This document shows, piece by piece, positions 5,400 through 53,680 of a stretch of 64,000 bases of DNA (position 1 is the stretch's first letter; each line of letters starts with the position of its first letter). The translations under genes were made by a program, and so were the position numbers. The DNA lies in contig CALVWI010000004.1 in assembly GCA_944367045.1 (NCBI GenBank), positions 50,015 to 114,014 on the forward strand. The letters run 5' to 3'. Below the pieces are notes generated by a model. The model was not told where the DNA came from, did no database searches, and saw only the letters and a list, made by a program, of their open reading frames with translations. This DNA is from an uncultured Clostridia bacterium (GTDB lineage Bacteria; Bacillota; Clostridia; Christensenellales; Borkfalkiaceae).

Positions 5400-5415
5400 A
5401 CGCTCAATCGAATAT

Positions 5416-5527
5416 TCTTTGGGGCGGAGTGAAAGTCTCCACCGGCAGTAAAGTCTGCGAAGGGCCGCAAGGCCCCCGAACGGGTGCGATTCCCGTACCG
5501 ACGGTATAGTCCGGATGAGAAAAGAAC
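5416..5527 (+). ncRNA. FMN riboswitch (RFN element)
   Basis: All conserved RFN blocks are present in order: GGGGCGGAGTGAAAGTCTCC, ACCGGCAGTAAAGTCTGCG, the variable GGGCCGC-AAGGCCC arm, CGAACGGGTGCGATTCCCGT, ACCGACGGTATAGTCCGGAT and GAGAAAAGAA. The aptamer binds FMN. It is followed at once by a hairpin with a T-rich tail and then a riboflavin transporter gene, so control is probably by transcription attenuation: flavin-replete cells stop ribU expression. Confidence 0.96.
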
Positions 5528-5541
5528 AATAGGCTTTTTTC

Positions 5542-11312: not shown

Positions 11313-12512
11313 ATGGCAAAGATCCAAATGAAGACGCCGCTCGTCGAGATGGACGGCGACGAGATGACGCGCATCCTTTGGCAGGACATCAAGGACATCC
11401 TGCTCACCCCCTATATCGATCTCAAGACGGAGTACTACGATCTCGGCCTTGTCCACCGCGACGAGACGGACGATCAGGTCACCATCGACAGCGCCGAGGC
11501 GACCAAGCGGCTGGGCGTTGCCGTCAAGTGCGCGACCATCACCCCCAACGTGCAGCGCATGAGCGAGTACCACCTCAAGAAGATGTGGAAGAGCCCCAAC
11601 GGCACCATCCGCCGCATTCTGGACGGCACCGTGTTCCGCGCGCCCATCCTCTGCGACGGCATCGTGCCCTATATCCCCGGCTGGAAGCAGCCCATCGTCC
11701 TCGCCCGTCACGCCTACGGCGACGTGTATTCCGCGGTCGACGAGGAGCTCGAAGCGGGCGAAAAGGCGTATCTCGTCATCGAGAACGACAAGGGCGAAGT
11801 GCGCAGAAAGCTCATCCACGACTTCGACGGCGCGGGCGTCGTGCAGGGCATGCACAACACGGACGCCTCCATCCGCTCCTTCGCACACAGCTGCTTCCGC
11901 TATGCGGTCGAGAACAGCATCCCCATGATCTTCTCGACGAAGGACACCATCTCCAAGCAGTACGACGGCAGATTCAAGAAAATTTTCGAGGAAGTCTACG
12001 AGGAATACCGCGCACAGTTCGAAGAAAAGGGCATCTGGTACCTCTACACGCTCATCGATGACGCCGTGGCGCGCGTCGTCCGCAGCGAGGGCGGCCTCCT
12101 TTGGGCGTGCAAGAACTACGACGGCGACGTCATGAGCGACATGGTGGCGACGGCGTACGGCTCCCTCGGCATGATGAGCTCCGTCCTCGTCTCGCCCGAC
12201 GGCAAGTATGAGTACGAGGCGGCGCACGGCACCGTCACCCGCCACTACTACAAGCATCTCAAGGGGGAGGAGACCTCGACGAACTCCGTCGCGACCATCT
12301 TTGCATGGACGGGCGCGCTCAAAAAGAGAGGGGAGCTGGACGGCACCCCCGACCTCGTCGCCTTTGCCGAAAAGCTGGAAAACGCCACCAAGGCGACCAT
12401 CGAGGCGGGCGAAATGACGGGCGACCTCATCCCGCTCTTCAAGAAGGAGGGCGTGACCCCGAAGAAGCTCAATTCTGTCGAGTTCCTTCGCGCCATCGCC
12501 TCCCGCCTTTGA
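11313..12512 (+). CDS. icd: NADP-dependent isocitrate dehydrogenase (eukaryotic-type)
   Basis: 399 residues. Oxidatively decarboxylates isocitrate to 2-oxoglutarate with NADP. The sequence is of the homodimeric type shared with eukaryotes: [20 protein letters not shown] at the start, [54 protein letters not shown], and the NADP-side [27 protein letters not shown] precedes ATG. It has its own promoter and terminator. With the HMGL-like gene at 63756 it suggests an oxidative glutamate-forming branch, if that gene is a Re-citrate synthase. Confidence 0.96.
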
Positions 12513-12761: not shown

Positions 12762-12790
12762 TTGACAACCAAACGGAAGTCTGTTAAAAT
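12762..12790 (+). promoter_or_regulatory. Strong promoter upstream of the surface-protein locus
   Basis: TTGACA (12762-12767), 17 bp, TAAAAT (12785-12790). No convincing coding sequence follows before the next promoter at 13138. Confidence 0.85.
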
Positions 12791-13137: not shown

Positions 13138-13166
13138 TTGACAACCCGAAACTACAATGATAGAAT
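13138..13166 (+). promoter_or_regulatory. Promoter of surface lipoprotein A
   Basis: TTGACA (13138-13143), 17 bp, TAGAAT (13161-13166). A GTCATAT-N7-ATATGAC dyad (13179-13199) lies just after the expected start site, immediately before the 398-bp repeat begins at 13200. No equivalent promoter or dyad exists in front of lipoprotein B. Confidence 0.88.
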
Positions 13167-13199
13167 ATGCTCCGAAGTGTCATATGGGAAAGATATGAC

Positions 13200-13597
13200 C
13201 TCAGTCTCGAAAAATATTTAAAGGAGAATCATTATGGAAAAACAATCAACCAGAAAGTTCCTTAAGCTGATCGTTGCTCTGGTCGTCTTGTTCCTCCTCG
13301 GTTCCTCCGCCCTCTTGCTCGCTTCCTGTAAAGAGGAAGAACATGAGCATGCTTGGGACGAAGGTACCGTCACAACTTCGGCGACCTGTACAACCCCCGG
13401 CGTAATGACTTTCCACTGCACCGTTGATGGGTGTACCGAAACCAAGACCGAAGAGATCAAAGCACTCGGCCACGACTATCAGCTCAATGCCGATCAGTCT
13501 AAAGATGCTACTTGTACCTCTAACGGCTCTTCCGTTTACGTCTGCTCCCGCTGCGGCGATTCCTATGCCGTTACTTCCCCCGCTACCGGCCATAAGT
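13200..13597 (+). repeat. Outer inverted repeat, left copy (398 bp, perfect)
   Basis: Base-for-base identical to the reverse complement of 23100-23497. It covers 34 bp of leader, the AAAGGAG site, and the first 121 codons of lipoprotein A. Identity stops abruptly after CCATAAGT, where the two paralogues diverge. Confidence 0.97.
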
Positions 13598-16500
13598 GGG
13601 ACGAAGGGAAAGTGACTACCGAGCCCACCTGTCAGCCCGGCGTCAAGACCTACACGTGCCAGAATTGCGGTGAGACGAAGACCGAATCGATCGCTGCTAC
13701 CACCGGTCACGAATGGGTGCTCAACGAAGAGCTCACCGTTGCGCCTACCTGCGCCAAGGACGGTGTGAAGTTCTACGAGTGCGCAAACTGCGGCACTACG
13801 CAGGAGATCGTCGATCCCGCTACCGGCAACCACGAGTACAACTACGAGTACATCGATGCATCCTGCGAGGAGTGGGGTATCGTCATCATCACCTGCAAGA
13901 ACTGCACCTACTACAAGCAGGAGACCGATAGCTCCAAGCCTCCGCTTGAGCACAACTACATCGTCAATACCGATGATCCCAACTACGTTGCTCCCACCTG
14001 CGTTTCTCAGGGTTATGGTACCTTCGAGTGCACCCGCTGCAACGATACGTACGCAGGTCCCATCGCGGCTCTGACCACCAACGGCCAGCACCAGTGGATC
14101 GTCAATACCGATACCGATGATACCCTTCCTGGTTTCGTACTTGGTGTTGGTAATAATTACGCGACTGTCGATGAAGCAAAGGCTGATGGCTGGACCACCG
14201 TCACTGCTTACAACTGCACCACGGCAGGCCTCATCCAGCGCGTCTGCGACCGCTGCGGCTATATTGAGTCCAAGCCCGTCGCCGCTACGGGTCACAGCCC
14301 CGTCGGCATGACCGAATGGCTCAAGGGCGCAGGCTCCAGCTATAATAACGACAATTACTCCAACACCGAGAAGATCAACGCTTATCTGCGCGCTACGTCT
14401 AAGGACAACATCGGCGGCGTCTGCCACATCAACAAGGATCTCAAGGACGCCGAGGGCAATCAGATCTACGCATTCGAGTGCGAGAACGCTAACTGCCCTT
14501 GCGAAGTTGTCTACAACGCTTACGGCCAGACGAAGAACCTCGTTCCCGCTGTTTCGGAGCACACCTATGTCAACGCCAACGGCACCGAAGTTGCTTGGGT
14601 TGCTGTTCCCGGCAAGGTTGCAGATTGCGATACCGCAGGTAAGGAACATCGTTACTGCGTCTACTGCGGCGAGGAAGTCCAGCGCGATGTCGCTGCTCTT
14701 GGCCACACCTGGAACACCCTTCAGCTTGACGGCAGAACGGAAACGCTCAAGTGCGATCCCGATGAACTGCTCGTCAACACCACGGCAGGCCTTACGGCCC
14801 TTCGTAAGGCGCTTGAAAGCTACTACGATGACCTCTACACGGCTGATGAGATCTATAATGAAGTCGTGAAGAACTTCAAGTCGGGCGAGCAGTATGCTTA
14901 CTTCTGCTACACCTGCGGCGCGCTTGAGAAGGCGACCGATCACGAGTATGTCATCGGTACCCTTCAGGATGGCAAGTATGACATGAACGACTTTGTTGTC
15001 GATGAAGATGGCAACGTCGTCGTCGCGGAAGGTGTCACGGTCGATACCATGACCTGCCGCAACGTCTATGTCTGCAAGAACTGCCTCACGCCCGAGTACA
15101 TCGGCGAGCACGGCACGTTCACGACGGCTACCTGCCGCGAAGGCTCCGAGTGCCCGATCTGCGGCAAGCCCGGCGCAGGCCAGCTCCAGCACCAGTATGT
15201 CAACATGAGCGACGTCCTGAATGAGTACAACGCTCTGACGAACACCGGCAACGCTGATTCCAAGCAGGTTGGTGACTACACCTACAACGGCAAGCCTCTT
15301 ACCTACGGCCAGCTCCGTGCCGCTTACGAGAAGGTCGTTGCAAACGAAGCATGGATCACCCCTGTTGCAGCTACCTGCTCGTCTGCCGGTACCGATGTCT
15401 ATGTCTGCTTCACCTGCCTGCTCGATGCAGCAAACGGTGTTGAGTTCGACTGGACGAAGGGCACCCTTGCAGAGACCGATCTTAAAGAAGGTGAAGTCCC
15501 TGCTCCCGCTTACGAGTACTCCGCTTACACGGTTGCTACTTCCGACGGCCACGATTGGGTCGCTGTCTACTACAAGACCGGCGCGACCGATCCTATGGTC
15601 GACAATTCCATCGACTTCGCGATTACCAGCTGCGAGAGCGGTTACAAGGTCGCATACTTCTGCGAGAACTGCAAGACGCTCTACAAGAACGTCCCCGTTC
15701 TTGATAATGAGGATACCGAAGCTGATGAGCGCGAAAAGAACATCGCCGGCACCGAAGGCTTCACGAACGAGGCAGGTTTCGTCCTTAACCGCGATGCTTA
15801 CGAAGGTGATGGCGAAGGCGTGATCGACGTTAAGAAGCTCGACGAAGCTCAGCTCAAGACCCTCCTTACGAAGGTCGACGACCACCGCGGCCAGCACGTT
15901 GTGTACATCCCTATGAACTACAACAAGCTTGCCGGCCAGTATGCGGCTCCTACCTGTATCGAAGAAGCTACGCTTCCCGTCGTCTGCGTCAACTGCGGCG
16001 CTTCGCTCCAGTACACCTACGACGAGATCGCAGCTCAGATCACGAACATCAATGGCAATAACACTACCGAGATCGTTAAGCACAAGTTCGTGTTTGCGAC
16101 CGCTGACGAAGTGAAGGCAGCCCTTGGCGTGACCTCCTTCACGGATGGGAAGGATGCTTACCTCATCACGGAGGATGTGTTCGAGCAGAACGCTACTCCT
16201 GCAGATGCTGGCGCACTTGCTGCTGAAGCAAGAGTCAACCCTGACAACCACGCTAACCAGCCCTTCGCTTGCGGCGACCACTGCAACGCAGTCCTCAAGG
16301 ATGCGACGACCGGTGCGATCATCGGTTACTGCTCCGGCTTCGACACCGATAAGGACGAAGACGGCAACTACAGTGTCGTTACCGATAAGCCCGCGAACTT
16401 CGACGCTGACGACCACACCACGGTCACTGTTGAGTTCAAGCTCAGCGCTCGTCTCAACGGCAGCTACCTCGGCAGCTACACCCTCAAGATCGCCGTCGTC

Positions 16501-18102
16501 GATTCGAATGACCTCACGAAGGATTCCGGCGGCACCGTCAACGGTGTTGACTGGACGAAGGCAGAACTTCTGACCATCGACACCATCGCTAAGTGCTCTG
16601 GCGAAGGCACGACCTACACGCTTCCTGTGAAGTACGAACTTTCCGAGGTTTCCAGCCTTACGGCAGGCACCGAAGTCAAGTTCTTCGTGCTCCAGAACGC
16701 AGAAGGGAAGATCTACCCGATCACGATCGATATGAACTTCTACAGCGAAGATGCTGCTACGTTCGCATTGATCAATAATAACACCAAGGTTTCCGGTACG
16801 ACAGTTCAGGTCCCTCAGGGCGATGTGTTCTTCATCGACTTCGGTGGCAATGATGCTAACGTGACCCGTCCTGCAGTTCCCGTCGAGGTCTCCGATGCTA
16901 CGTCGTTTGCTCTTGCGATCACGAACGCAGACTACGACACCACGCAGAAGGCTTACGTCGTGAAGTTCCAGGAAGGCGCTGATATCTCCGTCGCTTACGC
17001 AGATGGTGATTCTCAGTCCGCTGCTTCCAAGGCTCTGGAAGATGCTGTCGAGGCTCTTGCAGCCAAGTTTGAAAGCGACGGTGACAACGCAAGTGCAGTC
17101 GTCGTCGACCTCAACGGCGGTTCCATCGACTACACGATCGCTTACAGATTCGCTGACACCCACTTCGACGGTTTCGATGCAGTCACGTTCAAGAACGGTA
17201 CGATCGAGATCATCGGCACGCAGGATGCAGATAAGGTCGTTGACAAGTTCGCGATCGCTATGACGACGTCCGATCTTGACCTCACGCTCGACAACGTCGA
17301 CCTCATCACGAACAAGAGCGCGATCTACATCGGCACGACCTACACGGGCACCGTGACCATCGTCGACTCCAACATCACCACCTACGGTACCTATGGTATC
17401 TATGTCGGCGACGATACTGAGACGCATCAGTGGAACGGCACCGAGACCGCAGCATACGTGCTCGATATCGACGACTCCACCATCACCTGCACGAGAGACT
17501 TCGCAACCGATCCCGATGCTGAGCAGCTCCTTTCGACCGCTCTCTTCGTCGCATCCAAGGCAGAAGTCACCGTCGATGGTTCCACCCTCTCCGCAGCCGG
17601 CCAGGCTATGGTCGTCCGTGGCGGTACCGTCCTTGCAGCAGACACGAGCTTCGTCCTCATCGCAGGTTACGAAGATGTCGCAGCAAACGATGCGACCTAC
17701 GGCGTCGAAGAAGGTGACCTTGGTATCACCAGCGTCGGTTACGGCGGCAAGACCCTCAGCCTTGCTCCCGGCCGTGCCCTTCAGGTCTATCGTCAGCACG
17801 GTGTTTGGGATAAGACCAACCACGTTGTCCGTGCAGCGATCGTCATCGGTAACTCCAGCGAGACTGCTTACTACAAGCTCGCTACCGATGTTACCCTCAA
17901 CGATGTCCGCATCGACGCTTCGGCTGTCGAGGATGCGGAAGAGATCGAGATCGCAGCTCGTTACGACGTCGATGGCAAGGATGCTGTCAACGGCTCCGTC
18001 TCCGTCGAGTACGAGGGCTACGGCGATTACCTCGAGGCAGCTATCTCCGACAACTCCATCCGTTCGCTCATCACGATCAACGGTACGGCGCTTACGGACT
18101 AA
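13234..18102 (+). CDS. Giant Cys-rich surface lipoprotein A
   Basis: 1,622 residues. Basic N-terminus, hydrophobic segment and lipobox LASC with Cys32 predict a lipid-anchored exported protein. Residues 33-340 hold tandem modules of about 40 residues with the pattern TC-x(3-5)-G-x(4-6)-C-x2-CG-x(9)-ATGH (for example ATCTSNGSSVYVCSRCG); more CxxC pairs recur to about residue 930. Spacing suggests metal-bound or zinc-ribbon-like folds. The last 300-odd residues (from about 1290) have short beta rungs with DNVDLITNKSAIYIG-type repeats, like a right-handed beta-helix. Function unknown; adhesin or surface antigen is inference. Codon use is less GC-rich than in neighbours. Paralogue of lipoprotein B, facing it tail to tail. 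Confidence 0.88.
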   Translation: MEKQSTRKFLKLIVALVVLFLLGSSALLLASCKEEEHEHAWDEGTVTTSATCTTPGVMTFHCTVDGCTETKTEEIKALGHDYQLNADQSKDATCTSNGSSVYVCSRCGDSYAVTSPATGHKWDEGKVTTEPTCQPGVKTYTCQNCGETKTESIAATTGHEWVLNEELTVAPTCAKDGVKFYECANCGTTQEIVDPATGNHEYNYEYIDASCEEWGIVIITCKNCTYYKQETDSSKPPLEHNYIVNTDDPNYVAPTCVSQGYGTFECTRCNDTYAGPIAALTTNGQHQWIVNTDTDDTLPGFVLGVGNNYATVDEAKADGWTTVTAYNCTTAGLIQRVCDRCGYIESKPVAATGHSPVGMTEWLKGAGSSYNNDNYSNTEKINAYLRATSKDNIGGVCHINKDLKDAEGNQIYAFECENANCPCEVVYNAYGQTKNLVPAVSEHTYVNANGTEVAWVAVPGKVADCDTAGKEHRYCVYCGEEVQRDVAALGHTWNTLQLDGRTETLKCDPDELLVNTTAGLTALRKALESYYDDLYTADEIYNEVVKNFKSGEQYAYFCYTCGALEKATDHEYVIGTLQDGKYDMNDFVVDEDGNVVVAEGVTVDTMTCRNVYVCKNCLTPEYIGEHGTFTTATCREGSECPICGKPGAGQLQHQYVNMSDVLNEYNALTNTGNADSKQVGDYTYNGKPLTYGQLRAAYEKVVANEAWITPVAATCSSAGTDVYVCFTCLLDAANGVEFDWTKGTLAETDLKEGEVPAPAYEYSAYTVATSDGHDWVAVYYKTGATDPMVDNSIDFAITSCESGYKVAYFCENCKTLYKNVPVLDNEDTEADEREKNIAGTEGFTNEAGFVLNRDAYEGDGEGVIDVKKLDEAQLKTLLTKVDDHRGQHVVYIPMNYNKLAGQYAAPTCIEEATLPVVCVNCGASLQYTYDEIAAQITNINGNNTTEIVKHKFVFATADEVKAALGVTSFTDGKDAYLITEDVFEQNATPADAGALAAEARVNPDNHANQPFACGDHCNAVLKDATTGAIIGYCSGFDTDKDEDGNYSVVTDKPANFDADDHTTVTVEFKLSARLNGSYLGSYTLKIAVVDSNDLTKDSGGTVNGVDWTKAELLTIDTIAKCSGEGTTYTLPVKYELSEVSSLTAGTEVKFFVLQNAEGKIYPITIDMNFYSEDAATFALINNNTKVSGTTVQVPQGDVFFIDFGGNDANVTRPAVPVEVSDATSFALAITNADYDTTQKAYVVKFQEGADISVAYADGDSQSAASKALEDAVEALAAKFESDGDNASAVVVDLNGGSIDYTIAYRFADTHFDGFDAVTFKNGTIEIIGTQDADKVVDKFAIAMTTSDLDLTLDNVDLITNKSAIYIGTTYTGTVTIVDSNITTYGTYGIYVGDDTETHQWNGTETAAYVLDIDDSTITCTRDFATDPDAEQLLSTALFVASKAEVTVDGSTLSAAGQAMVVRGGTVLAADTSFVLIAGYEDVAANDATYGVEEGDLGITSVGYGGKTLSLAPGRALQVYRQHGVWDKTNHVVRAAIVIGNSSETAYYKLATDVTLNDVRIDASAVEDAEEIEIAARYDVDGKDAVNGSVSVEYEGYGDYLEAAISDNSIRSLITINGTALTD

Positions 18103-18133
18103 CTGCTTGGGCGAAAGCCCCGAACAAATGCTT

Positions 18134-18235
18134 ACTACCATCAATGAGAGTAGATAACTTGATTAACTACAGTCTGGTTGATTGATAGTCCAATAGCAAG
18201 GAATGTCCCCGAAGGGTAACCTTCGGGGATATTCC
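18134..18235 (+). repeat. Inner inverted repeat, left arm (102 bp, perfect)
   Basis: Identical to the reverse complement of 18498-18599; near-identity continues about 12 bp further toward the stop codon. It contains the hairpin GGAATGTCCCCGAAGG (18200-18215), loop GTAA, with its near-complement (18220-18235). This is the probable terminator of lipoprotein A, although only TATGTTTATTT follows it here. Confidence 0.95.
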
Positions 18236-18497
18236 TATGTTTATTTCACGCGAATCTTTTTGCAAAGGCAAAAATCTTCGCCGTGAGATTCAGGAAAACA
18301 CCGCCGCGGCAAGACTGCGGCTCGTTTGATCTCAAACGGCGTAAGGGAAACGCCGTTTTCGGTCACCGCTCGCGCGGGAGAATGCGCTCGCTCGTCTCGC
18401 AAGGGGAAAACAGCACACCGTGCTGTTTTAAGAACGCCCTTGCTCATCCCTCACGGAATTTGTTTTGCGGAGCAAAAGAAATTCGTGAACGAAAAAA
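18236..18497. other. Structured spacer between the convergent lipoprotein genes
   Basis: 262 bases, no gene. It holds two hairpins of an intergenic family seen elsewhere in the window: 18246-18287 (CACG.GAATCTTTTTGC / GCAAAAATCTTCGCCGTG) and 18451-18488 (TCACGGAATTT.TTTTGC / GCAAAA.AAATTCGTGA). It also has smaller hairpins such as AACAGCAC/GTGCTGTT near 18409-18428. Confidence 0.6.
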
Positions 18498-18599
18498 GGA
18501 ATATCCCCGAAGGTTACCCTTCGGGGACATTCCTTGCTATTGGACTATCAATCAACCAGACTGTAGTTAATCAAGTTATCTACTCTCATTGATGGTAGT
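18498..18599 (-). repeat. Inner inverted repeat, right arm with terminator of B
   Basis: Exact inverted copy of 18134-18235. On the minus strand its hairpin (18498-18533) is followed by six T (18492-18497), so it is a classic intrinsic terminator for lipoprotein B. Confidence 0.95.
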
Positions 18600-18633
18600 G
18601 AGCATTGTTCAGGAGTCTAAGACTCTTTTGCGA

Positions 18634-21600
18634 TCACGCACCAAGGTTGTCATCGTTGATCGTGATGAGCGATGCAATGGCGTTGGGCATAACGGAGTTC
18701 TTGAGGAGCTGCGTGTTGCCGGTCCACTTAACGGTGACCATCGTGGTCTCAGCGGCCTCAGGCTCATCAACGTGGTAACGAGCAGCGATCGCGATGTTCT
18801 GAGCATCCTCGACGGAGTTGTCGAACGTGATGTTGTTGAGCGTGACATAGACAGGAAGATCGTAGTAATCCTTCGTCGTGTCGGAATCGCTCTGATCGCA
18901 GTTGTAAGAGTTACCGATGACAAGGGCTGCACGGACAACGTTGTTGAGCTTACCCCAGACACCGTACTGACGGTACATCTGAAGAGGACGGCTTGCAACG
19001 TAGCCAAGCGTGGAACCATCGTAACCTGCGCTCGTGATGCCGAGGTCGGTATCAGCGGTGATGCCTGCGGTAGCAAGATCATCATCCTCATAACCTTCGA
19101 CAAGCACGAGTCTGGTGTTCGCCATGCTGAGGGTACCCATACGGACGACAACAGCCTGACCTGCTGCGGAGAACACACCACCCTTGACTTCGACTGCGAC
19201 AGGTGCGCCGACGAAGAGTGCGGTGCTAAGAGCCCACTCGGCATTCGCATCAGCAGTGACTGCCACAGGATTTCTCGTCATCGTGATGTTGGTGTTCTCA
19301 AGAGTGACGACCGTCTCACGCGTGGTCTTATCGATCTGATCGGAAGCCTCATTGCTGTCACCGACAAAGATACCATAGTTACCATAAGAGGTAATGGAGG
19401 AATCTTTGAGGGTCACGCTGCCGGTGGTGGTAGGAGCAACGTAGATACCGCCCTTCTCGGAAACGATGTCGACATTGTCGAAGATGACATCGGAAGCCGT
19501 TTCGGGGATCGTGATCGCAAACTTCGTTTCGGGAGCAGTTGCGCCGCCCTTATAGTAGTTGATCTTACCGTTGGTAACGGTGATCGTCTCGAAGTTGCGA
19601 AGGGCCGTAAGAGAATCTTCAGTCATCTGATCTTCGGTGAAGTGAGCCTTCGCGGAAGTGATGCTGAGCGTACCGCCGTTGAGGTCGAAGATGATCGCAT
19701 CGGAGGTGCCGTTCTTGTCGGTTGCAAGCTCAACGAATGCATCAAGGACATCATCGAAGGTCTTGCCGTACGTGTCGGAGTTGTAGCTTGCGACGATGTT
19801 CGCGCCTGCTGCAAATTCGACGACATACGCCTTCTTATCCTTGTCGTACTCGGCGTTCTCGATCGCAAGTGCAAGCGAGGTTGCGTCGGTAGCCTCGACA
19901 GGAACTGCAGGGCGGTTTGCTTTCGAACCATCATAATCGTAACCGAAGTCGATGAAGAACTGGTCGTCGGAACCGACATCGATCGAAGCGCCATTTGCCA
20001 TGAGGTTGCCCTCATTGCCATCAGGCCAAGCCTGCGAGTCATCTGCGAAGACGCGGAGACCGTAAGCGCTTGGAGTAGAGCTATCCTGGGTAGGATAGAC
20101 GTTGCCTTCTGCATCGACGAGGACGAAGTAGTTCGAACCTGCCGAAATGTTGCTGCCGTTCCAAGCGGTAGGAAGCTTGTAGTTGGTCGTGCCAGCGCAA
20201 GCGGAAGCGCTGTCGGTGGTCTTAAACGTGACCTTGCTCCAATCAACCTCGCCGTCCGTGAAGCTGTTTGCCGTGACAACAGCGATCTTAAGGGTGTAGC
20301 CGTTGAGATAGCTGGTGCTGAGTCTGTTACTGAGATAGAAGCTGAGGGTAACGGTCGCGTGTGCCGTATCCTGAGCGCACTTGTCGGTCAGAGGCACAGA
20401 GGGAGGATTCGATACGCTCGTGTTCTGCTCGTCGTAGTACTTAAGAAGTGCGCCGCAGATGTAAGCGGTACCCTGAGCGTTCGTGACCTTGCAGTGCGTG
20501 CCGCAAGCGAACGTCTGACCTGCGTGGTTGGTAAGATCGACAGAAGCAGCCTTCGTAAGAACGGTGTTCTTGCTGCTGAAGGTGTTGGTATCGATGAGAT
20601 AGCCGTTCGTGCCATCCTTCCAGCCTGCAGGCATTTCGTTCTGAGTAGCAGCCTTGAATGCAGGGGTATTCGTATCCTCGAAGTTAGGAATGGTACCACC
20701 TTCCTTAAGAGCTTCGTAGCTGTACTCAAGGGTTGCGCCGCAGTTGATGCAGACCACAGGAATGGTAGCAGTCGAAATGCAGTTGGAAGCCACATAGTTG
20801 TTGAGGCTTGCGAAGTTCATCGGGATGTAGATGACGTGCGAGCCCTTATGGTCGTCGACCTTCGTAAGGAGGGTCTTGAGATCGGAAGCCGTGAAGGTAG
20901 TCTGAGCGATGTCAGTAACCTTTGCGACCTCTTCCTTGTCGAGCATGAAGCCAGCCTCGTTGGTGAAGCCCATGCCTTCCTTGTTGTTCTTTGCTTCGTT
21001 CTTGTCGTCCTCTTCCGTAGCCTGAGAGTCGTTGGTCGTGTCGTTAGCGACAGGAACATTGGTGTAGAGCTTACCGCAGTCAGCGCAGAAGTAAGCGACC
21101 TTGAAGCCGTACTCGCAGCTCGTGAGAGCGACGTCCTTGCTGCCTTCGACGGTAGCAACGGTATCAGTAAGGTTGAAGTAGTAAGGAGCCCAATCGTGTG
21201 CGCCCTCTACAGCAATGACGTATGCGCTGTACTCATAGCCGTTTGCGGGAACCGTCGCACCTGCTGCAATGGTAACTTCGTCGCCCGTCTTCCACTCGAA
21301 CTCGATGTCTGCAGCTGCGTCAAGAAGGCACTTGTAGCAGACATAAACTTCGGTACCGGCGGTCGTGCAGGTAGCAGTGACGGGCTTGAGCCAAGCCTCA
21401 TCAGCGAGGACCTTTTCATAAGCTTCGCGGAGCTGGCCGTAGGTGACAGCCTTGTTGTTGTACGTAATGCCGTCAACCTCATCCTTGTCAGCGTGGCCGG
21501 GGTTGGAAACGGAGCTAACATTTTCGTTCAGCACGTCTGCCATGTCGAGGTACTGGTGCTGAAGCTGAGCCTTGAGCTGCTCGCCGCAGAGTTCGCAGTA

Positions 21601-23463
21601 GGAACCTGCACGGCAGGACTGAGGGGTGATGGAAGCCGTAGGGTGATCGCCCTTGTGGTCAGGGGTACCGCAGTTCTTGCAGACAAGGACGTTGCGGCAG
21701 GTCATCGTAGCTTCGGTGACGCCTTCTGCAACGACGACATTGCCATCCTCGTCGACGACATAGTCGCTGAGGTTGTACTTGCCATCCTGAAGGGTACCGA
21801 CGACCCATTCGTGATCCTTAGCAACTTCAACTTCGCCGCAGCGGAAGCAGAAGCGAGCATAGGAGTTGCCGGAAGTCATATTGCTAAGGACTTCCTGATA
21901 GATTGCGTCAGCCTTGTAGGGATCGTTGTCGTAGTACTCGCTGATCGCCTCATAGAGGGCTTCAAGACCATCCTCGTTGCTAATATCGAGGTAAGGGTCA
22001 TCATCGCAGACGAGAGCAGTGGTTCTGCCGTCGAGCTGCATGGTGTTCCAAGCGTGCTCGAGAGCCTCTGCATCCTTCGTCTCGGTCTGGCCGCAGACAG
22101 GGCAGGTACGGGTGACCTTGCCGGCGGTGGTGCAGGTAGGAGCATGTGCGCCGGTCGCATCACCGGGCTTCCACTCAACAGCGGAACCGTCAGCGTTCGT
22201 CCAGGTGTGGTCAACAGCGGGAACGAGGTTCTCGGTATTGCCGTATGCGTCGATCACGGTCTCGCAAGGGCAGCCTTCGCGGTCGCAGACGAACGTATAG
22301 ATCTTCTGGCCCTGTGCATCGACGAGGTCGGGATCAACATAGCAGAGGCCATTGATACCCTGTGCCTTAAGAGCCTCAGCAAGAGTAAGATCGTCTTCGG
22401 TTCCTGCCTTCTTATCATCGCCATCCATAGCCGCGATGTGGTGGCCGAGAGCCGCAATGGTGCCCTTGTCAACGTAACCGCAGACGGTGCAAACGCGCTC
22501 CATCGTGCCGGCGGTGGTGCAGTTCGCAGCCGTAACGGTCGTCCAGCCTTCAGCCTTCAGAGCAGCGCTGAGGGTATCCTCGGTATCCGTGTTGGGCGCA
22601 AAGGTATGCGAACCGGTTTCGGAGAGAGCGGGGATAGGATCCTGGTAACGGACCTTGCAGCGGATGCACTCATAGATATTGTAGCCGGCGGTGACGCAGG
22701 TAGGATCGAGGTGATCGACGACGTTCATGGAACCGTCGGGATTGACGTAGGAGTGGTCAAGCTTGGGGAGGACGGTAGAGGACTTAACGTAGCCGCAGAC
22801 CTCGCAGACTTCCTGACGAAGGCCATCGACCTCGCAGGAGGCAGCCTGTTCTTTAGTGGTGAAGGAATGCTCACCGGTAGCGGGGATGGCTTCGGTCTTG
22901 GTCTCGCTGCAGTTTACGCAGTGGTAAGTACGGAGGCCGGTCGTGCCGCAAGTAGCCGCGATAGTGACTTCACCCTCGTCCCAGGTATGAACGCCGGTAG
23001 CGGGGATGACCTGGACTTCCTGATAGCCGCAGACGGAGCACGTACGGGTAACGGAGCCTGCCTTGACGCAGGTAGCGTCGACGGTAACGGGGTCACCCAA
23101 CTTATGGCCGGTAGCGGGGGAAGTAACGGCATAGGAATCGCCGCAGCGGGAGCAGACGTAAACGGAAGAGCCGTTAGAGGTACAAGTAGCATCTTTAGAC
23201 TGATCGGCATTGAGCTGATAGTCGTGGCCGAGTGCTTTGATCTCTTCGGTCTTGGTTTCGGTACACCCATCAACGGTGCAGTGGAAAGTCATTACGCCGG
23301 GGGTTGTACAGGTCGCCGAAGTTGTGACGGTACCTTCGTCCCAAGCATGCTCATGTTCTTCCTCTTTACAGGAAGCGAGCAAGAGGGCGGAGGAACCGAG
23401 GAGGAACAAGACGACCAGAGCAACGATCAGCTTAAGGAACTTTCTGGTTGATTGTTTTTCCAT
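18634..23463 (-). CDS. Giant Cys-rich surface lipoprotein B
   Basis: 1,609 residues, paralogue of lipoprotein A in opposite orientation. The first 121 residues, including lipobox LASC (Cys32), are identical to A because the DNA is an exact inverted repeat. Beyond GHK the two differ, though they keep the same order of Cys modules (TCVKAGSVTRTCSVCG, TCGTTGLRTYHCVNC and so on), the shared block GTLQDGKYNLSDYVVDEDG, a central domain, and a C-terminal beta-helix-like region. The ATG at 23463 has the same AAAGGAG leader as A. I find no -35/-10 pair in the roughly 200 bp upstream, so this may be a silent copy in the present orientation. Function unknown. Confidence 0.87.
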   Translation of the reverse strand: MEKQSTRKFLKLIVALVVLFLLGSSALLLASCKEEEHEHAWDEGTVTTSATCTTPGVMTFHCTVDGCTETKTEEIKALGHDYQLNADQSKDATCTSNGSSVYVCSRCGDSYAVTSPATGHKLGDPVTVDATCVKAGSVTRTCSVCGYQEVQVIPATGVHTWDEGEVTIAATCGTTGLRTYHCVNCSETKTEAIPATGEHSFTTKEQAASCEVDGLRQEVCEVCGYVKSSTVLPKLDHSYVNPDGSMNVVDHLDPTCVTAGYNIYECIRCKVRYQDPIPALSETGSHTFAPNTDTEDTLSAALKAEGWTTVTAANCTTAGTMERVCTVCGYVDKGTIAALGHHIAAMDGDDKKAGTEDDLTLAEALKAQGINGLCYVDPDLVDAQGQKIYTFVCDREGCPCETVIDAYGNTENLVPAVDHTWTNADGSAVEWKPGDATGAHAPTCTTAGKVTRTCPVCGQTETKDAEALEHAWNTMQLDGRTTALVCDDDPYLDISNEDGLEALYEAISEYYDNDPYKADAIYQEVLSNMTSGNSYARFCFRCGEVEVAKDHEWVVGTLQDGKYNLSDYVVDEDGNVVVAEGVTEATMTCRNVLVCKNCGTPDHKGDHPTASITPQSCRAGSYCELCGEQLKAQLQHQYLDMADVLNENVSSVSNPGHADKDEVDGITYNNKAVTYGQLREAYEKVLADEAWLKPVTATCTTAGTEVYVCYKCLLDAAADIEFEWKTGDEVTIAAGATVPANGYEYSAYVIAVEGAHDWAPYYFNLTDTVATVEGSKDVALTSCEYGFKVAYFCADCGKLYTNVPVANDTTNDSQATEEDDKNEAKNNKEGMGFTNEAGFMLDKEEVAKVTDIAQTTFTASDLKTLLTKVDDHKGSHVIYIPMNFASLNNYVASNCISTATIPVVCINCGATLEYSYEALKEGGTIPNFEDTNTPAFKAATQNEMPAGWKDGTNGYLIDTNTFSSKNTVLTKAASVDLTNHAGQTFACGTHCKVTNAQGTAYICGALLKYYDEQNTSVSNPPSVPLTDKCAQDTAHATVTLSFYLSNRLSTSYLNGYTLKIAVVTANSFTDGEVDWSKVTFKTTDSASACAGTTNYKLPTAWNGSNISAGSNYFVLVDAEGNVYPTQDSSTPSAYGLRVFADDSQAWPDGNEGNLMANGASIDVGSDDQFFIDFGYDYDGSKANRPAVPVEATDATSLALAIENAEYDKDKKAYVVEFAAGANIVASYNSDTYGKTFDDVLDAFVELATDKNGTSDAIIFDLNGGTLSITSAKAHFTEDQMTEDSLTALRNFETITVTNGKINYYKGGATAPETKFAITIPETASDVIFDNVDIVSEKGGIYVAPTTTGSVTLKDSSITSYGNYGIFVGDSNEASDQIDKTTRETVVTLENTNITMTRNPVAVTADANAEWALSTALFVGAPVAVEVKGGVFSAAGQAVVVRMGTLSMANTRLVLVEGYEDDDLATAGITADTDLGITSAGYDGSTLGYVASRPLQMYRQYGVWGKLNNVVRAALVIGNSYNCDQSDSDTTKDYYDLPVYVTLNNITFDNSVEDAQNIAIAARYHVDEPEAAETTMVTVKWTGNTQLLKNSVMPNAIASLITINDDNLGA

Positions 23464-23497
23464 AATGATTCTCCTTTAAATATTTTTCGAGACTGAG
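23100..23497 (-). repeat. Outer inverted repeat, right copy (398 bp, perfect)
   Basis: Exact inverted copy of 13200-13597; I compared all of it line by line and found no mismatch. It covers the leader, ribosome binding site and first 121 codons of lipoprotein B. Confidence 0.97.
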
Positions 23498-23535
23498 TGA
23501 GCAGAGGAATAGCAGAAATACCCTTTATCCAGCCT

Positions 23536-23640
23536 TCCCGTCGCGAGGGTCTCGGGGCGAATTCATTTTAATGAATTCGCAACGACGGGAGCTGACGCTC
23601 CCGAGCCCGACGCCCGTCCACAGGACGGGCGTCGGGCTGT
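23536..23640. repeat. Cluster of nested palindromes upstream of lipoprotein B
   Basis: Four dyads in about 100 bp: outer TCCCGTCG/CGACGGGA (23536-23543 with 23583-23590), inside it GCGAATTCATT-TT-AATGAATTCGC (23557-23580), then GGGAGC-TGAC-GCTCCC (23587-23602), then a perfect 16-bp stem with a 3-base loop (23604-23638). None has a T-run. They occupy the place where a promoter for lipoprotein B would be expected. Confidence 0.75.
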
Positions 23641-23666
23641 TCCCTCGGGAGGGCGGCCGTATTCGC

Positions 23667-23695
23667 TTGATTTTCGCAGAAAAGTTTGATATACT
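23667..23695 (+). promoter_or_regulatory. Promoter giving a leaderless obgE mRNA
   Basis: TTGATT (23667-23672), 17 bp, TATACT (23690-23695). The obgE ATG follows after six bases, as at tsaE. Confidence 0.75.
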
Positions 23696-23701
23696 GTCCG
23701 C

Positions 23702-24979
23702 ATGGACAACAAACCTTTTACCGACAGAGTAAAAATCACCGTCAAAGCCGGCAACGGCGGCGACGGCATGAACAGCTTTCAGGCATACAAGGGCAAGCCC
23801 GCCTGCGGGCCGGACGGCGGCGACGGCGGCAACGGCGGAAGCGTCTACTTCCTCGGCGACCGCAACATGCACGATCTTCTCTCCTTCCGCTATACCTCCA
23901 AGTACTTCGCAGGCAACGGCGCGCGCGGCGGCACCAACCGCTGTACGGGCAAGCAGGGGGAGGACGTCGTCATCAAGGTGCCTCTCGGGACGCTCGTCCG
24001 CGACGCAGAGTCCGGCAAGGTCATCATGGACGTCTATGAGGACGGTGAAAAGCTCCTTCTTCTCGAGGGCGGAAGGGGAGGCAAGGGCAACGTGCGCTTC
24101 ACGACGGCGCGCCGCCACGCCCCCGACTTCGCGCAGAAGGGCGTCCTCACCAAGCCGCACGAGCTCATCCTTGAGATGAAGGTCATCGCGGACGTCGGCC
24201 TCGTCGGCTTCCCCAACGTGGGCAAGAGCACGCTGCTCTCCAAGATCTCGGCCGCCCGCCCCAAGATCGCCGACTACCACTTCACGACGCTCTCGCCCAA
24301 CCTCGGCGTGGTGCGCGTGTTTGACGAGAGCTTTATCTGCGCCGATATCCCCGGGCTCATCGAGGGCGCGGCACAGGGCGCGGGCCTCGGGCATGCCTTC
24401 CTGCGCCACATCGAGCGCACCCGCATGATCGTGCACGTCGTCGACATCTCGGGCATGGAGGGGCGGGACCCCGTCGCCGATTTCAAAGCCATCAACGAGG
24501 AACTCGCGGCCTATTCCGAGAAGCTCGCCGCCCTCCCGCAGGTCGTCGCCTGCAACAAGTGCGACTGCGCGGGCGCGGAGGAGAACCTCGTGCGCTTCCG
24601 GGAGGCATACGGCGGCAAGTACCGCATCTTCCCCATCACGGCGGTGAAGAGCGAGGGGCTGGAGGCGCTTCTAAAGGAAGTCGTCGAGATGCTCAAAGAG
24701 CTGCCGCCTGCCGAGCGCATCCCCGCCGAGGAGTTCGAGTTCGACGAGGGCGACAACGCACAGTTTGAGATCTTCCGCGACGAGACGGGTGCGTACGTCG
24801 TCGTGGGAGGTCTTGCCGACATGCTCTGCCGCAACGTGGTGATGAGCAACCCCGAGTCGATGGCGTACTTCCAGCGCGTTTTAAAGCTGCGCGGCGTCAT
24901 CAAGGCGCTGCAGGCCGCGGGCTGCAAGGAGGGCGACACCGTGATGGTGGGGGACACCGAATTCGACTTCGTGCCGTGA
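23702..24979 (+). CDS. obgE: GTPase Obg (CgtA)
   Basis: 425 residues. Essential ribosome-associated GTPase of 50S assembly and stress control. Three domains are visible: a Gly-rich Obg fold (1-160, GGNGGDGMNSF, GPDGGDGGNGGSVYF, GGRGGKGNVRF), the G domain with GFPNVGKST (169-177), DIPGLIEGAAQGAGLGHAFL and NKCD, and a C-terminal OCT domain (from about 340, FRDETGAYVVVGG) found in Firmicutes Obg. The ATG at 23702 starts at the conserved N-terminus. No ribosome binding site precedes it; the -10 box is six bases away. Confidence 0.96.
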   Translation: MDNKPFTDRVKITVKAGNGGDGMNSFQAYKGKPACGPDGGDGGNGGSVYFLGDRNMHDLLSFRYTSKYFAGNGARGGTNRCTGKQGEDVVIKVPLGTLVRDAESGKVIMDVYEDGEKLLLLEGGRGGKGNVRFTTARRHAPDFAQKGVLTKPHELILEMKVIADVGLVGFPNVGKSTLLSKISAARPKIADYHFTTLSPNLGVVRVFDESFICADIPGLIEGAAQGAGLGHAFLRHIERTRMIVHVVDISGMEGRDPVADFKAINEELAAYSEKLAALPQVVACNKCDCAGAEENLVRFREAYGGKYRIFPITAVKSEGLEALLKEVVEMLKELPPAERIPAEEFEFDEGDNAQFEIFRDETGAYVVVGGLADMLCRNVVMSNPESMAYFQRVLKLRGVIKALQAAGCKEGDTVMVGDTEFDFVP

Positions 24980-40430: not shown

Positions 40431-40507
40431 TGGTCGAGGCGACGGGATTTGAACCCACGACCTCTTGGTCCCGAACCAAGCGCGCTACCAAACTGCGCTA
40501 CGCCTCG
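40431..40507 (-). tRNA. tRNA-Pro (anticodon CGG)
   Basis: 77 bases including an encoded CCA. Acceptor CGAGGCG/CGCCTCG, D-stem GCGC/GCGC, anticodon arm CTTGG-TTCGGGA-CCAAG with anticodon CGG, T-arm GTGGG-TTCAAAT-CCCGT. All stems pair fully. Confidence 0.97.
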
Positions 40508-40580
40508 AACAGCGTTTATTATACCAAACAGAGCGCCGTTTTGCAAGCAATTTCATGTGCCTTCCGCATTTCAAGGCAAA

Positions 40581-40608
40581 AATAAAACCCCGCTGAAGAT
40601 AGCGGGGG
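40581..40608 (-). terminator. Terminator of rnpB
   Basis: Minus-strand hairpin CCCCGCT / AGCGGGG with loop ATCTTC, then TTTTATTTTT. Confidence 0.9.
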
Positions 40609-40616
40609 AAAAAGCA

Positions 40617-40978
40617 GGGGTGATCCGAGACGGGCCTATAAGCCGGGTTCTGTCGAGCGCGGTCATTTATCTACACCCGCCGTCACCGACGGGCTCAAGC
40701 GTTATTCACGGCTCTGCTCGGACGGGCAGCCCATATGAACAGAGCCCAAACTTGCATCGGACGGGGTTTACATGGCACGGGGCGTTACCGTCCCGTCGGT
40801 GAGCTCTTACCTCGCCTTTCCATCCTTACAGCGAAAACTCGCTGCGGTCTATTTCTGTTGCACTTTCCTTGAAGTCGCCTTCACCTGACGTTATCAGGCG
40901 TCCTGCCCTGTGATGCCCGGACTTTCCTCATCGCGTGAAATCACGCGCCGCGGCCGCGCAGCCCGCTCGGATCGGGGT
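40617..40978 (-). ncRNA. rnpB: RNase P RNA (bacterial type A)
   Basis: Catalytic RNA of RNase P, which trims tRNA 5' leaders. The universal blocks are present on the minus strand: GATGAGGAAAGTCCGGGC near the 5' end, CACAGGGCAGGACGCC, the ACAGAAATAGACCGC core, GGTAAGAGCTCACCG and the closing ACAGAACCCGGCTTATAGGC. End positions are approximate to a few bases. A TGTGGTATAAT extended -10 (40981-40986) lies right upstream, so the RNA starts near 40975. Confidence 0.96.
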
Positions 40979-46830: not shown

Positions 46831-48366
46831 ATGCAACACGAAAGAGTTTTGGTCCTCGACTTCGGCGGCCAGTACAACCAGCTCATCGCCCGCCGCGTGA
46901 GAGACTTGGGCGTCTACTGCGATCTCAAGTCCTGCTCCATGAGCATGGACGAGATCAAGGCATACGCGCCCATCGGCATCATCTTCACGGGCGGCCCCAA
47001 CAGCGTCTACGACGAGAAGTCGCCCCACATCGATCCCGCCATCTTCGAGCTCGGCATTCCCGTCCTCGGCATCTGCTACGGCTGCCAGCTCATCGCCTAT
47101 ACCCTCGGCGGCAAGGTGGAGCACGCGCCCCAGAGCGAGTACGGCAAGCGCCACGTCGAATTCGTCAAAGAGAGCCCGCTCTCGGAGAATATCCCCGCAA
47201 AGAGCGTCTGCTGGATGAGCCATACCGACTACGTCGCCGAGGCACCCGCGGGGTTCGACATCCTCGCCGTCACCGAGAGCTGCCCCGTCGCCGTCTACGG
47301 GAACGAAAATAGGCGCATCTACGGCGTGCAGTATCACCCCGAGGTCGTTCACTCCGAGTACGGCAATCAGCTCCTCAAAAACTTCCTCTACAACGTCTGC
47401 AGGGCGAAGGGGGACTGGACGATGGGCGGCTTCGTCGAAGAGCAGGTCAAGGCTTTGAAAGAAAAGCTCGCCGGCAAGAAGGTGCTGTGCGCGATGTCAG
47501 GCGGCGTCGATTCCGCCGTCGCAGCGACCCTCGTCCACCGCGCGGTGGGGGACAACCTCATCTGCGTCTTTGTCGACCACGGTCTCTTGCGCCTGCATGA
47601 AGCCGAGGAAGTCATGTCCGTGTTCCGCGATAAGCTGGGAATGAACCTCGTCAAGGCGGATGCGGGTGAGCTCTTCCTTGAAAAGCTGGCGGGCGTCTCC
47701 GACCCCGAACAAAAGCGCAAGATCATCGGCGAGGAGTTCATCCGCGTCTTTGAGAAGGAGGCGAAAAAGATCGGCGCCGTCGACTTCCTCGTGCAGGGGA
47801 CCATCTACCCCGACGTCATCGAGAGCGGCAAGGACAAGAGCGCCGTCATCAAGTCGCACCACAACGTGGGCGGGCTCCCTTCCGTCGTCGATTTCAAGGA
47901 GATCGTCGAGCCCCTCCGTGACCTCTTCAAGGACGAAGTGCGCCGCGTGGGCACCGAGCTGGGCCTCCCCGATTCAGTCGTGCAGCGTCAGCCCTTCCCG
48001 GGGCCCGGCCTCGCCATCCGCATCATGGGCGAGGTGACGCGCGAGAAGCTCGAGACCTTGCGCCTTGCCGACTTCATCTTCCGCGACGAGATCGCAAAGG
48101 CGGGCCTCCAGCGCGAGATCTGGCAGTACTTCGCCGTCATCACCAACAGCAAGACGGTGGGTGTGCAGGGGGACTTCAGGACGTATGAGAACGTCATCGC
48201 CCTCCGCGCCGTCACGAGCGTGGACGCCATGACCGCCGACTGGGCGCACATTCCCTTCGACGTTTTGGAGAAGGTATCCCTCCGCATCACGGGCGAGGTG
48301 CCGCACGCCAGCCGTGTCGTGTATGACATCACGAGCAAACCGCCGGCTACGATTGAATGGGAGTGA
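46831..48366 (+). CDS. guaA: GMP synthase (glutamine-hydrolysing), full length
   Basis: 511 residues; XMP to GMP. An N-terminal class I glutaminase has the triad Cys82 (GICYGCQL), His169 and Glu171 (VQYHPEV). The ATP-pyrophosphatase domain has [12 protein letters not shown]. The C-terminal dimerisation domain ends [21 protein letters not shown] precedes ATG. The 3' end GAATGGGAGTGA is the same type of sequence used as attachment site in the second copy (guaA2, 48778-49755), but here it is uninterrupted. Confidence 0.97.
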
Positions 48367-48370
48367 TGGT

Positions 48371-48580
48371 TTTCGCGAAAATCTTTTTGCTTTGCAAAAA
48401 TCTTTCCGCGAGGGGTCAAGATTGTTGATTTTAACGGGCGGCTTCGGCCGCCCACTTTTTTGTCATTCTAAGAACACTAAGCACAGGTATGTGCAAATTG
48501 GGGGCGCGGGCGAAGGCATAGCCTTCTTGCGCAGTTCATTTTAAGGAAAAAACGCCTGTCGGGTTGACGGGCGTTTTACT
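48371..48580. repeat. Structured intergenic repeat module R1
   Basis: In order: long A/T-rich hairpin (48371-48415), the guaA terminator (48435-48462), hairpin GCACA-GGTA-TGTGC followed by AAATTG (48481-48500), hairpin GAAGGC-ATA-GCCTTC (48512-48526), GCGCAGTTCATTTTAA, and hairpin AACGCCTGTC/GACGGGCGTT (48551-48575). The same order with compensating base changes recurs at 57225-57461. No gene in this gap. Confidence 0.7.
48435..48462 (+). terminator. Terminator after guaA
   Basis: GGGCGGC-TTCG-GCCGCCC stem-loop followed by ACTTTTTT. Confidence 0.92.
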
Positions 48581-48691
48581 TTTTTCGGGCTTTAAGAGGG
48601 GGATATTTCGAGGAAAATCGAAATGGAAGGGGTTTCGTATTTCGAATTGCATCGAAATGGCCGCCTTCTGCCAGTCATTTAAAATCAGGTC

Positions 48692-48720
48692 TTGACAATG
48701 CGGGAAAGCTCCCTTATAAT
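48692..48720 (+). promoter_or_regulatory. Promoter of guaA2
   Basis: TTGACA (48692-48697), 17 bp, TATAAT (48715-48720). The leader of about 50 bases contains CCCGC/GCGGG (48734-48750) and no purine riboswitch. Confidence 0.92.
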
Positions 48721-48777
48721 AAATTTGGATCATGCCCGCGGAAGTGCGGGGAAATGTTATGTGATAAGGAGAAACTT

Positions 48778-49755
48778 ATGAGCAATGTAAGACCGGAAAG
48801 CATGGAGCGCATCACGACCGAGGCGCTCGCCCAAGCGTTCATCGCCGAACAGGTGGCCGCTCTCAAAGCGCAGGTGGGGGACAAGAAGGTGCTCCTTGCC
48901 CTCTCGGGCGGGGTAGATTCCTCCGTCGTCGCCGCCCTTCTCATCAAGGCCATCGGCAAGCAGCTCGTGTGCGTGCACGTCAACCACGGCCTTCTCCGCA
49001 AGGGGGAACCCGAGCAGGTCGTCGAAGAATTCCGCCATCAGATGGACGCCAACCTCGTCTATGTGGACGCCGTCGACCGCTTCCTCGACAAGCTCGCGGG
49101 CGTCGCGGAGCCCGAGAAGAAGCGCAAGATCATCGGTGCGGAGTTCATCCGCGTCTTTGAAGAGGAGGCGAGAAAGCTGGACGGCATCGAGTTCCTCGCG
49201 CAGGGCACCATCTATCCCGACATTCTCGAGAGCGGGCCCGTCAAGGCGCACCACAACGTGGGCGGCCTTCCCGACGACCTCAAGTTCGAGCTCGTCGAGC
49301 CCCTCAAGTTCCTCTTCAAGGACGAGGTGCGCGTCGTCGGCAAGGCGCTGGGCCTTCCCGACAGCATGGTCTACCGTCAGCCCTTCCCCGGTCCCGGCCT
49401 CGGCGTTCGGTGTCTCGGCGCCATCACCCGCGACCGCCTCGAAGCCGTGCGCGAGTCGGACGCCATCCTCCGCGAGGAGTTCGCAAAGAACGGCCTCGAG
49501 GGCAAGGTTTGGCAGTACTTCACGATCGTGCCCGATTTCAAGTCGGTGGGCGTCAAGGACGGCAAGCGCTCCTTCGAGTGGCCCGTCATCATTCGCGCCG
49601 TCAACACCAAGGACGCCATGACCGCGACGGTCGAGGACGTGCCCTTCGCGCTTCTGCAGCACATCACCGCGCGCATCACGGCCGAGGTGAAGGGCGTCAA
49701 CCGCGTGTGCTACGACCTCACCCCCAAGCCCACGGGGACGATTGAATGGGAATAA
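48778..49755 (+). CDS. guaA2: GMP synthetase ATP-pyrophosphatase subunit, no glutaminase domain
   Basis: 325 residues. Corresponds to the synthetase and dimerisation domains of GuaA only: LALSGGVDSSVVAALL PP-loop, [61 protein letters not shown], ending KPTGTIEWE. The glutaminase domain present in the upstream guaA is absent and no separate glutaminase subunit is adjacent. It would be ammonia-dependent or borrow a glutaminase. It is clearly a paralogue of the neighbouring guaA, with its own strong promoter and an AAGGAGAAACTT site before ATG 48778. The 3' end is the left junction of the mobile island. Confidence 0.92.
   Translation: MSNVRPESMERITTEALAQAFIAEQVAALKAQVGDKKVLLALSGGVDSSVVAALLIKAIGKQLVCVHVNHGLLRKGEPEQVVEEFRHQMDANLVYVDAVDRFLDKLAGVAEPEKKRKIIGAEFIRVFEEEARKLDGIEFLAQGTIYPDILESGPVKAHHNVGGLPDDLKFELVEPLKFLFKDEVRVVGKALGLPDSMVYRQPFPGPGLGVRCLGAITRDRLEAVRESDAILREEFAKNGLEGKVWQYFTIVPDFKSVGVKDGKRSFEWPVIIRAVNTKDAMTATVEDVPFALLQHITARITAEVKGVNRVCYDLTPKPTGTIEWE
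49744..49753 (+). repeat. attL core at the 3' end of guaA2
   Basis: GAATGGGAAT, the last full codons of guaA2, repeated directly at 57044-57053. The 3' end of guaA is a known integration target of tyrosine-recombinase elements. The gene is restored without loss. Confidence 0.7.
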
Positions 49756-52030: not shown

Positions 52031-52145
52031 GTGCGTTGTAGTATGCTTCCTCCTCAAATCTAATTTTACAAGAAAGGCGACCGTTTGTCTGCTCTCTTTC
52101 ATCTCTATTTGTGCCGAGAGCAACGCGGTCGGCATGGTGATTCTG

Positions 52146-53507: not shown

Positions 53508-53680
53508 TACGCGCCGCCTGTGGGGAGAGCTGCTCTCTGCGGGCGGCTTTTATCATAATTCATAAAATATCTTCACTCTGCTTGCGATCATCGCCGAAAT
53601 ATGCTATACTGAATTTGAATTCAGCGAACGCTGATCTTAGTTCTTTGTTTTCTGATCTAATTCGTTGTGGAGTGAATTGT

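Follow-up and report, generated by a model that had tools for sequence, protein, structure and literature searches.

Identical inverted leaders at two giant lipoprotein genes suggest a candidate inversion switch in an uncultured Clostridia bacterium

When two very large genes face each other, begin with exactly the same sequence and differ throughout the rest of their length, do they take turns behind a single promoter? This question is raised by two convergent genes, here called lipoprotein A and lipoprotein B, which lie in a 64,000-nucleotide stretch of DNA (the window; contig CALVWI010000004.1, positions 50,015 to 114,014) from an uncultured Clostridia bacterium of the family Borkfalkiaceae, and for which the initial annotation had proposed an invertible switch between an expressed and a silent gene. 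The host genome (G000, with the window on its contig C4) is a metagenome-assembled genome (MAG) of 46 contigs and 1.89 Mb that is 93% complete, and it was compared with five genomes of the same genus, labelled G001, G027, G062, G076 and G081. The analysis makes it fairly probable that the two genes form an expression site and a silent copy switched by homologous inversion, similar to slpA/slpB of Lactobacillus acidophilus. The proposal was partly supported, by a promoter on the side of icd only, by homogenised leaders, by intact open reading frames (ORFs) and by the layout of the locus in the relatives.

Lipoprotein A (13234–18102, forward strand) and lipoprotein B (18634–23463, reverse strand) are encoded by intact ORFs of 1622 and 1609 residues, respectively. 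A base-by-base comparison of the left arm (13200–13597, forward strand) with the right arm (23100–23497, reverse strand) revealed 398 identical bases out of 398, with neither side extendable, as had been claimed before, while a repeat finder that extends with tolerance gives 401. The block begins 34 bp upstream of each ATG and extends one base beyond codon 121, again as described, and each arm carries the leader with its ribosome-binding site (RBS) and codons 1–121 with the lipoprotein signal peptide. The remaining coding sequence has diverged, as the initial annotation had stated: past codon 121, the two bodies share 60% DNA identity over 1423 aligned codons and their longest exact run is 32 nt, so that chance falls far short of explaining 398 identical bases. 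The proportion of synonymous differences (pS) between the bodies is 0.55 and that of nonsynonymous differences (pN) is 0.35, with pN < pS measured over the whole history of the bodies. In G000 the leader was found at these two sites only, a third match being a 71% piece inside B. In the same genus, 14 further lipoprotein loci, together about 214 kb and selected among the matches, were without exact inverted repeats of at least 40 bp (contigs broken at repeats would escape), so the inverted leader is not a general habit of such lipoprotein genes, as far as unbroken contigs show.

The two copies of the leader differ in what lies outside them. On the left, where the flanking gene is icd (NADP-dependent isocitrate dehydrogenase, 11313–12512, forward strand, NCBIfam NF006156), a consensus scan confirmed the near-consensus promoter TTGACA-17-TAGAAT at 13138–13166 (forward strand), just outside the repeat and with 11 of 12 consensus matches, followed by a 5′ untranslated region (UTR) hairpin (13179–13199, forward strand; sequence and folding) that also stands just outside the repeat. 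A second promoter-like site of the same quality, TTGACA-17-TAAAAT at 12762–12790 (forward strand), which the initial annotation did not mention, was detected by the scan about 375 bp farther upstream, and similar sites were seen by eye in G081 and G001. On the right, where the flank is obgE (23702–24979, forward strand, NCBIfam NF008955), B has no recognisable sigma-70 promoter, in agreement with the earlier claim: in the scan of 23400–24200 the sole sigma-70-like site points away from B, and none directed towards B was seen by eye in the flanks of four relatives. The motif TTGACA-17-TA(G/A)AAT is kept in all four genomes that show the icd side (G000, G027, G062 and G081), and a promoter before the obgE-side leader was found in none of five (G000, G001, G027, G062 and G076); these counts come from alignment and inspection by eye, the consensus scan having covered the window. 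Judged on sequence, the predicted promoter thus stands on one side only and outside the repeat. The 5′ UTR hairpin is the predicted fold in six of the seven copies folded, the exception being that of G001; in G027 and G062 the repeat includes it on both sides, whereas the obgE side of the window is without it. Two overlapping terminator-like sites directed towards B inside obgE (23735–23759) were near shuffle level (2 against a mean of 0.9) and were not used.

The relatives indicate how this arrangement may have arisen. A profile of the bodies, searched at E ≤ 1e-10 against 103 genomes of the genus, matched G000 and G081. In G081 the flanking genes are syntenic (icd 94%, obgE 92% identity) and enclose a single such gene in the orientation of A, whose 5′ region aligns with that of A from well upstream and includes TTGACA-17-TAGAAT, the 5′ UTR hairpin and the leader, while similarity to the upstream region of B starts only inside the leader. 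A is therefore placed at the ancestral expression site, and B would be an inverted copy that never acquired, or has lost, a promoter.

In other relatives the leader, for which six genomes were searched, was met at contig ends. The icd-side and obgE-side contigs of G062 end in the same leader with the last 131 bp exactly shared, those of G027 do so with the last 77 bp, and in G001 and G076 the last 77 bp of the obgE-side contig match the leader. Since two different flanks enter one sequence, an inverted repeat on both sides of the icd–obgE interval is deduced. As a control, 41 of the roughly 80 contig ends of G027 (both ends of C1–C20 and one of C33) were compared, and only the two flanks of this locus converge. 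A k-mer origin of the 131-bp shared end of G062 was considered and dropped: the accessible part of PMC8035907 gives 127 as the largest k-mer, which is not 131, and does not name this sample, and no claim on k-mers is made. The leader pattern at the DNA level matched five contigs in a genome-contig collection and none among viral contigs, and a profile search of the genome-contig collection with the bodies yielded no relative. Among 15 more distant loci of the genus around icd/obgE, no kept ORF of at least 200 residues matched A or B, a survey in which two contigs end shortly after icd and in which some real genes were hidden, because of each set of overlapping ORFs the longest was retained. 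The initial annotation had also suggested comparing orientation in related assemblies; this comparison gave the leader at the contig ends of relatives and the G081 gene in the orientation of A, and no inverted orientation was seen.

Within each genome that shows both, the leader copies are identical, over 398 bp in G000 and, up to the contig ends, over 131 bp in G062 and 77 bp in G027, whereas the obgE-side leaders of the four other genomes have 84–95% identity to that of G000 and so differ by 5–16%. Even the peculiar letters of the G027 5′ hairpin are present in both of its copies. Contigs break at identical copies, so the break points favour identity, and the identity is nonetheless real. 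Because the leaders are identical within genomes and different between them, ongoing recombination between the inverted copies in each lineage is the simplest account. An inversion carried out in a script left both ORFs open and exchanged their places, with B then behind the promoter, which agrees with the earlier claim that inversion would put the other protein behind the promoter with the same leader. Flipping the DNA between the leaders would therefore probably swap which protein is made.

Under the reading that we prefer, the icd side would be the expression site, supplying promoter, 5′ UTR hairpin and the shared leader, which comprises the RBS, the signal peptide and codons 1–121. The obgE side would be the storage site, with the same leader behind a multi-hairpin element in place of a recognisable promoter. 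Homologous recombination between the inverted leaders would flip about 9.5 kb and bring the other body of about 1,500 residues behind the promoter, and repeated exchange would keep the leaders identical while the bodies diverge. We infer that the exchange includes crossovers and hence inversion, that it is of the RecA type, and that B is silent in its present position. No recombinase is adjacent, and the simplest route is homologous exchange over the 398 bp. An intact ORF of 1609 codons is unexpected for a copy that is never expressed, and was counted in favour of the switch.

The multi-hairpin element was not mentioned in the initial annotation and is new here. It occupies 142 bp (23525–23666, reverse strand; folding and covariance model) between obgE and the leader of B, upstream of the promoterless copy, and in each of the five genomes that show this side (G000, G001, G027, G062 and G076) it folds into several hairpins held by a closing stem. 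By RNAalifold, 13 of 54 pairs are changed on both sides, with the second and third hairpins aligning poorly between two subgroups. Where the stems align well, 98% of the 150 cells are paired and 8 of 30 pairs are altered on both sides, while none of 500 shuffles reached either value; this test leans towards itself because the structure was derived from the same five sequences. With the covariance model, a single strong copy per genome was found in the five (110–167 bits; next best 35.5) and no strong copy in G081 (best 25.4 bits). The five genomes match the model by construction, and what is informative is the single copy number and the absence from G081. Against the 103 genomes of the genus, at E ≤ 1e-8 and with stricter filters, the sole further match was a weak one in G010 (47.6 bits). 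No Rfam family was found for the element at the gathering score, with nothing near below it, and no U-tract was seen in it by eye. The element may shield the stored gene, form the 5′ UTR of that gene or stimulate recombination. A more specific proposal, which we regard as speculative and rather unlikely, is that it belongs to the switch as a dedicated cis-acting component, either insulating the stored gene from stray transcription or forming cruciforms or stalling forks so that the resulting breaks drive RecA inversion between the leaders; if true, inversion would here be programmed without a recombinase and triggered by a DNA structure of its own.

At the inner ends of the genes a second inverted block, also not mentioned before, was detected by the repeat search. 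It consists of the two 3′ UTRs, each with a terminator-like hairpin (A, 18127–18241, forward strand, with 80% identity to the G081 3′ UTR; B, 18492–18606, reverse strand), which are 97% identical over 115 nt, 103 bp of them exactly. The homogenised parts of the locus are thus the leader and the 3′ UTR, not the bodies. The spacer between the 3′ UTRs (18242–18491) is a dispersed genomic repeat: a 529-bp query over the 3′ region gave 41 genome matches, of which three are the locus itself and the other 38 all fall within query positions 134–390, that is, in the spacer. These 38 matches elsewhere in the genome lie on both strands, some of them adjacent to each other. A mobile element as origin of the 3′ repeat was rejected, because the genome has no further match to the 115-bp arms and only the spacer is dispersed.

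A further observation concerns codons 4–7, whose 12 nt (CAATCAACCAGA) have a perfect complement in the 3′ UTR of their own gene in A (13243–13254, forward strand, with 18173–18184), in B (23443–23454 with 18549–18560) and in G081. By script, 0 of 300 shuffles reproduced this in each case, the three cases not being independent. The complementarity may reflect pairing of messenger RNA ends or a cassette-end repeat.

Lipoprotein signal peptides are recognised by the cysteine of the lipobox, and the N-termini of A and B both show, by eye, a hydrophobic stretch followed by the lipobox-like LLLASC. Both proteins then follow the same order of signal region, repeats with spaced cysteines and C-terminal part. 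No family was found for A or B in Pfam and NCBIfam, and no meaningful structural match was obtained with the predicted fold of the repeats near the N-terminus. A two-sequence model of the C-terminal part (mean pLDDT 56) showed a weak likeness to a right-handed beta-helix, the best PDB hit being a pectate lyase at E 3e-3 and none reaching E ≤ 0.001. A large surface binding protein is the natural guess for their role. Another giant repeat-rich lipoprotein is apparently split over two contig ends of G000, namely L045 5029–5370 at the end of C44 and L044 1–5367 at the start of C4, and its repeats (GHTPGEA...) meet at the break between the two.

Several points weigh against an inversion switch. The complete A/B locus is known in one assembled orientation. 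The icd-side contig of G001 stops before the leader and no icd was found for G076. The A and B bodies of G001, G027, G062 and G076 were not found in the genus search at E ≤ 1e-10 or in a search at E ≤ 0.01 run with no positive control, and the gene pairing presumed in these four genomes is deduced from flanks alone. The A/B region is a tetranucleotide outlier (0.38, in 9.5-kb windows centred on the locus with a reference excluding it, against mostly 0.09–0.20 elsewhere; windows starting at 45–54 kb are also high, at 0.20–0.41), so a separate contig with the bodies could plausibly fail to bin. Gene conversion without crossover leaves the same sequence marks, and a promoter for B of a type other than sigma-70 may lie inside the conserved obgE-side flank. 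If conversion were the whole story, leaders and 3′ UTRs would be copied without crossover while the genes stay fixed and B is expressed independently; an unrecognised promoter might, for instance, drive it, and the multi-hairpin element would then form its 5′ UTR. Homogenisation indeed needs no crossover, the ORF of B is intact, and the obgE-side flank, including GGCTG(G/A)ATAA, is kept in all five genomes with a leader there and differs in G081, a conservation for which it may be a regulatory leader. Yet the scan and the inspected flanks described above offer B no sigma-70-like site, inversion of the present locus by script would break no gene, and inverted repeats that recombine within a single chromosome will as a rule also cross over, for which reasons we hold conversion alone, the main rival, to be unlikely, if still worth reckoning with.

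The route of exchange could also be different, with a dedicated site-specific invertase acting on a short site in the leader or at its edge (such as the GTCATAT palindrome) and homologous exchange being secondary. A short core recombination site may lie inside the 398-bp block, in G027 and G062 the repeat has a palindromic hairpin at its outer edge, and searches of six genomes with PF00589 and PF00239 gave four tyrosine and three serine recombinase matches elsewhere in G000. The same searches found no recombinase beside the locus in the genome of the window, as the initial annotation had said, the nearest being a broken integrase (52134–53257) 29 kb away; the obgE side of the window is without the hairpin, which the single-gene G081 has, and invertase sites are short, yet 398 bp are homogenised here. 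We regard a dedicated invertase as improbable. Least credible by far is an artefact of assembly or binning in which a misjoin made the inverted leader: identical repeats in a 46-contig MAG are classic points of misassembly, but the two 3′ UTRs, the different flanks and the diverged bodies form a coherent locus, and four further genomes also have an assembled leader on the obgE side.

Elsewhere in the window, the apparently broken tyrosine integrase consists of two separate ORFs, with N-terminal domains at 52134–52673 and the catalytic part at 52892–53257, and perhaps marks the end of an integrated element. It is followed by a fragment of an AlwI-type restriction endonuclease (53504–54127) that adjoins a Gabija-like pair at 54196–56885, GajA (PDLC00102, E 7e-91) and GajB (PDLC00148, E 2e-42). 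A complete guaA (511 residues) and then a second, shorter GMP-synthase-like protein with the C-terminal domain (48754–49755) lie at 46831–49755, and the wider region around them is a tetranucleotide outlier. A flavin mononucleotide (FMN) riboswitch (5411–5530) and an RNase P class A RNA beside tRNA-Pro (40431–40969) were also observed.

Comparable switches are known from cultured bacteria. In the sap S-layer genes of Campylobacter fetus, a conserved 5′ block and one promoter are combined with an inversion that picks the expressed homologue; in that system the inverting segment carries the promoter and lies between diverging genes, whereas in our locus the promoter would stay in place and the genes would invert. 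The slpA and slpB genes of Lactobacillus acidophilus share their 5′ ends in opposite orientation, and Boot et al. (1996) is reportedly the source on these S-layer genes. Our locus resembles this pair in having two surface-protein genes on one segment, a promoter on one side and an intact second gene, and differs in its 1,600-residue lipoproteins, length of about 10 kb, 121 shared codons and multi-hairpin element, and in being known from sequence alone. In L. acidophilus, one gene stands behind two promoters and the other has none, inversion of a 6-kb segment interchanges these S-layer protein genes while the silent one is kept, and 99.7% of cells carry slpA at the expression site (PMC6015585, PMC6176008, PMC7858073). 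Inversion likewise joins one promoter, in some cases with an N-terminal part, to alternative surface (lipo)protein genes in Ureaplasma mba/UU172 and mycoplasma vsp, vpma and vsa (PMC3047005); unlike the 398-bp block with no adjacent recombinase here, those systems use short inversion sites and, in several mycoplasmas, XerC/D-like recombinases. The vmp genes of relapsing-fever Borrelia carry a 5′ upstream homology sequence (UHS) and a 3′ downstream homology sequence (DHS), one sigma-70-type expression-site promoter and 3′ inverted repeats (PMC4534519), and so resemble our locus in the blocks of homology that bound a diverged body at either end and in the single expression-site promoter; they differ in using gene conversion from donor alleles, where we see two intact genes in inverted orientation. 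Judging by titles and visible abstracts among the papers listed on Gallimonas, Borkfalkiaceae and DNA inversion or phase variation, in which subscription papers are poorly covered, the locus may be undescribed.

If the switch is real, surface-protein switching by segment inversion would extend to uncultured Clostridia and to very large lipoproteins. Such switches can be suspected even from broken MAG contigs, where both flanks end in the same leader. The locus would also offer a natural system in which inversion over long homology may persist with no invertase dedicated to it, and in which the storage site carries a conserved structured element.

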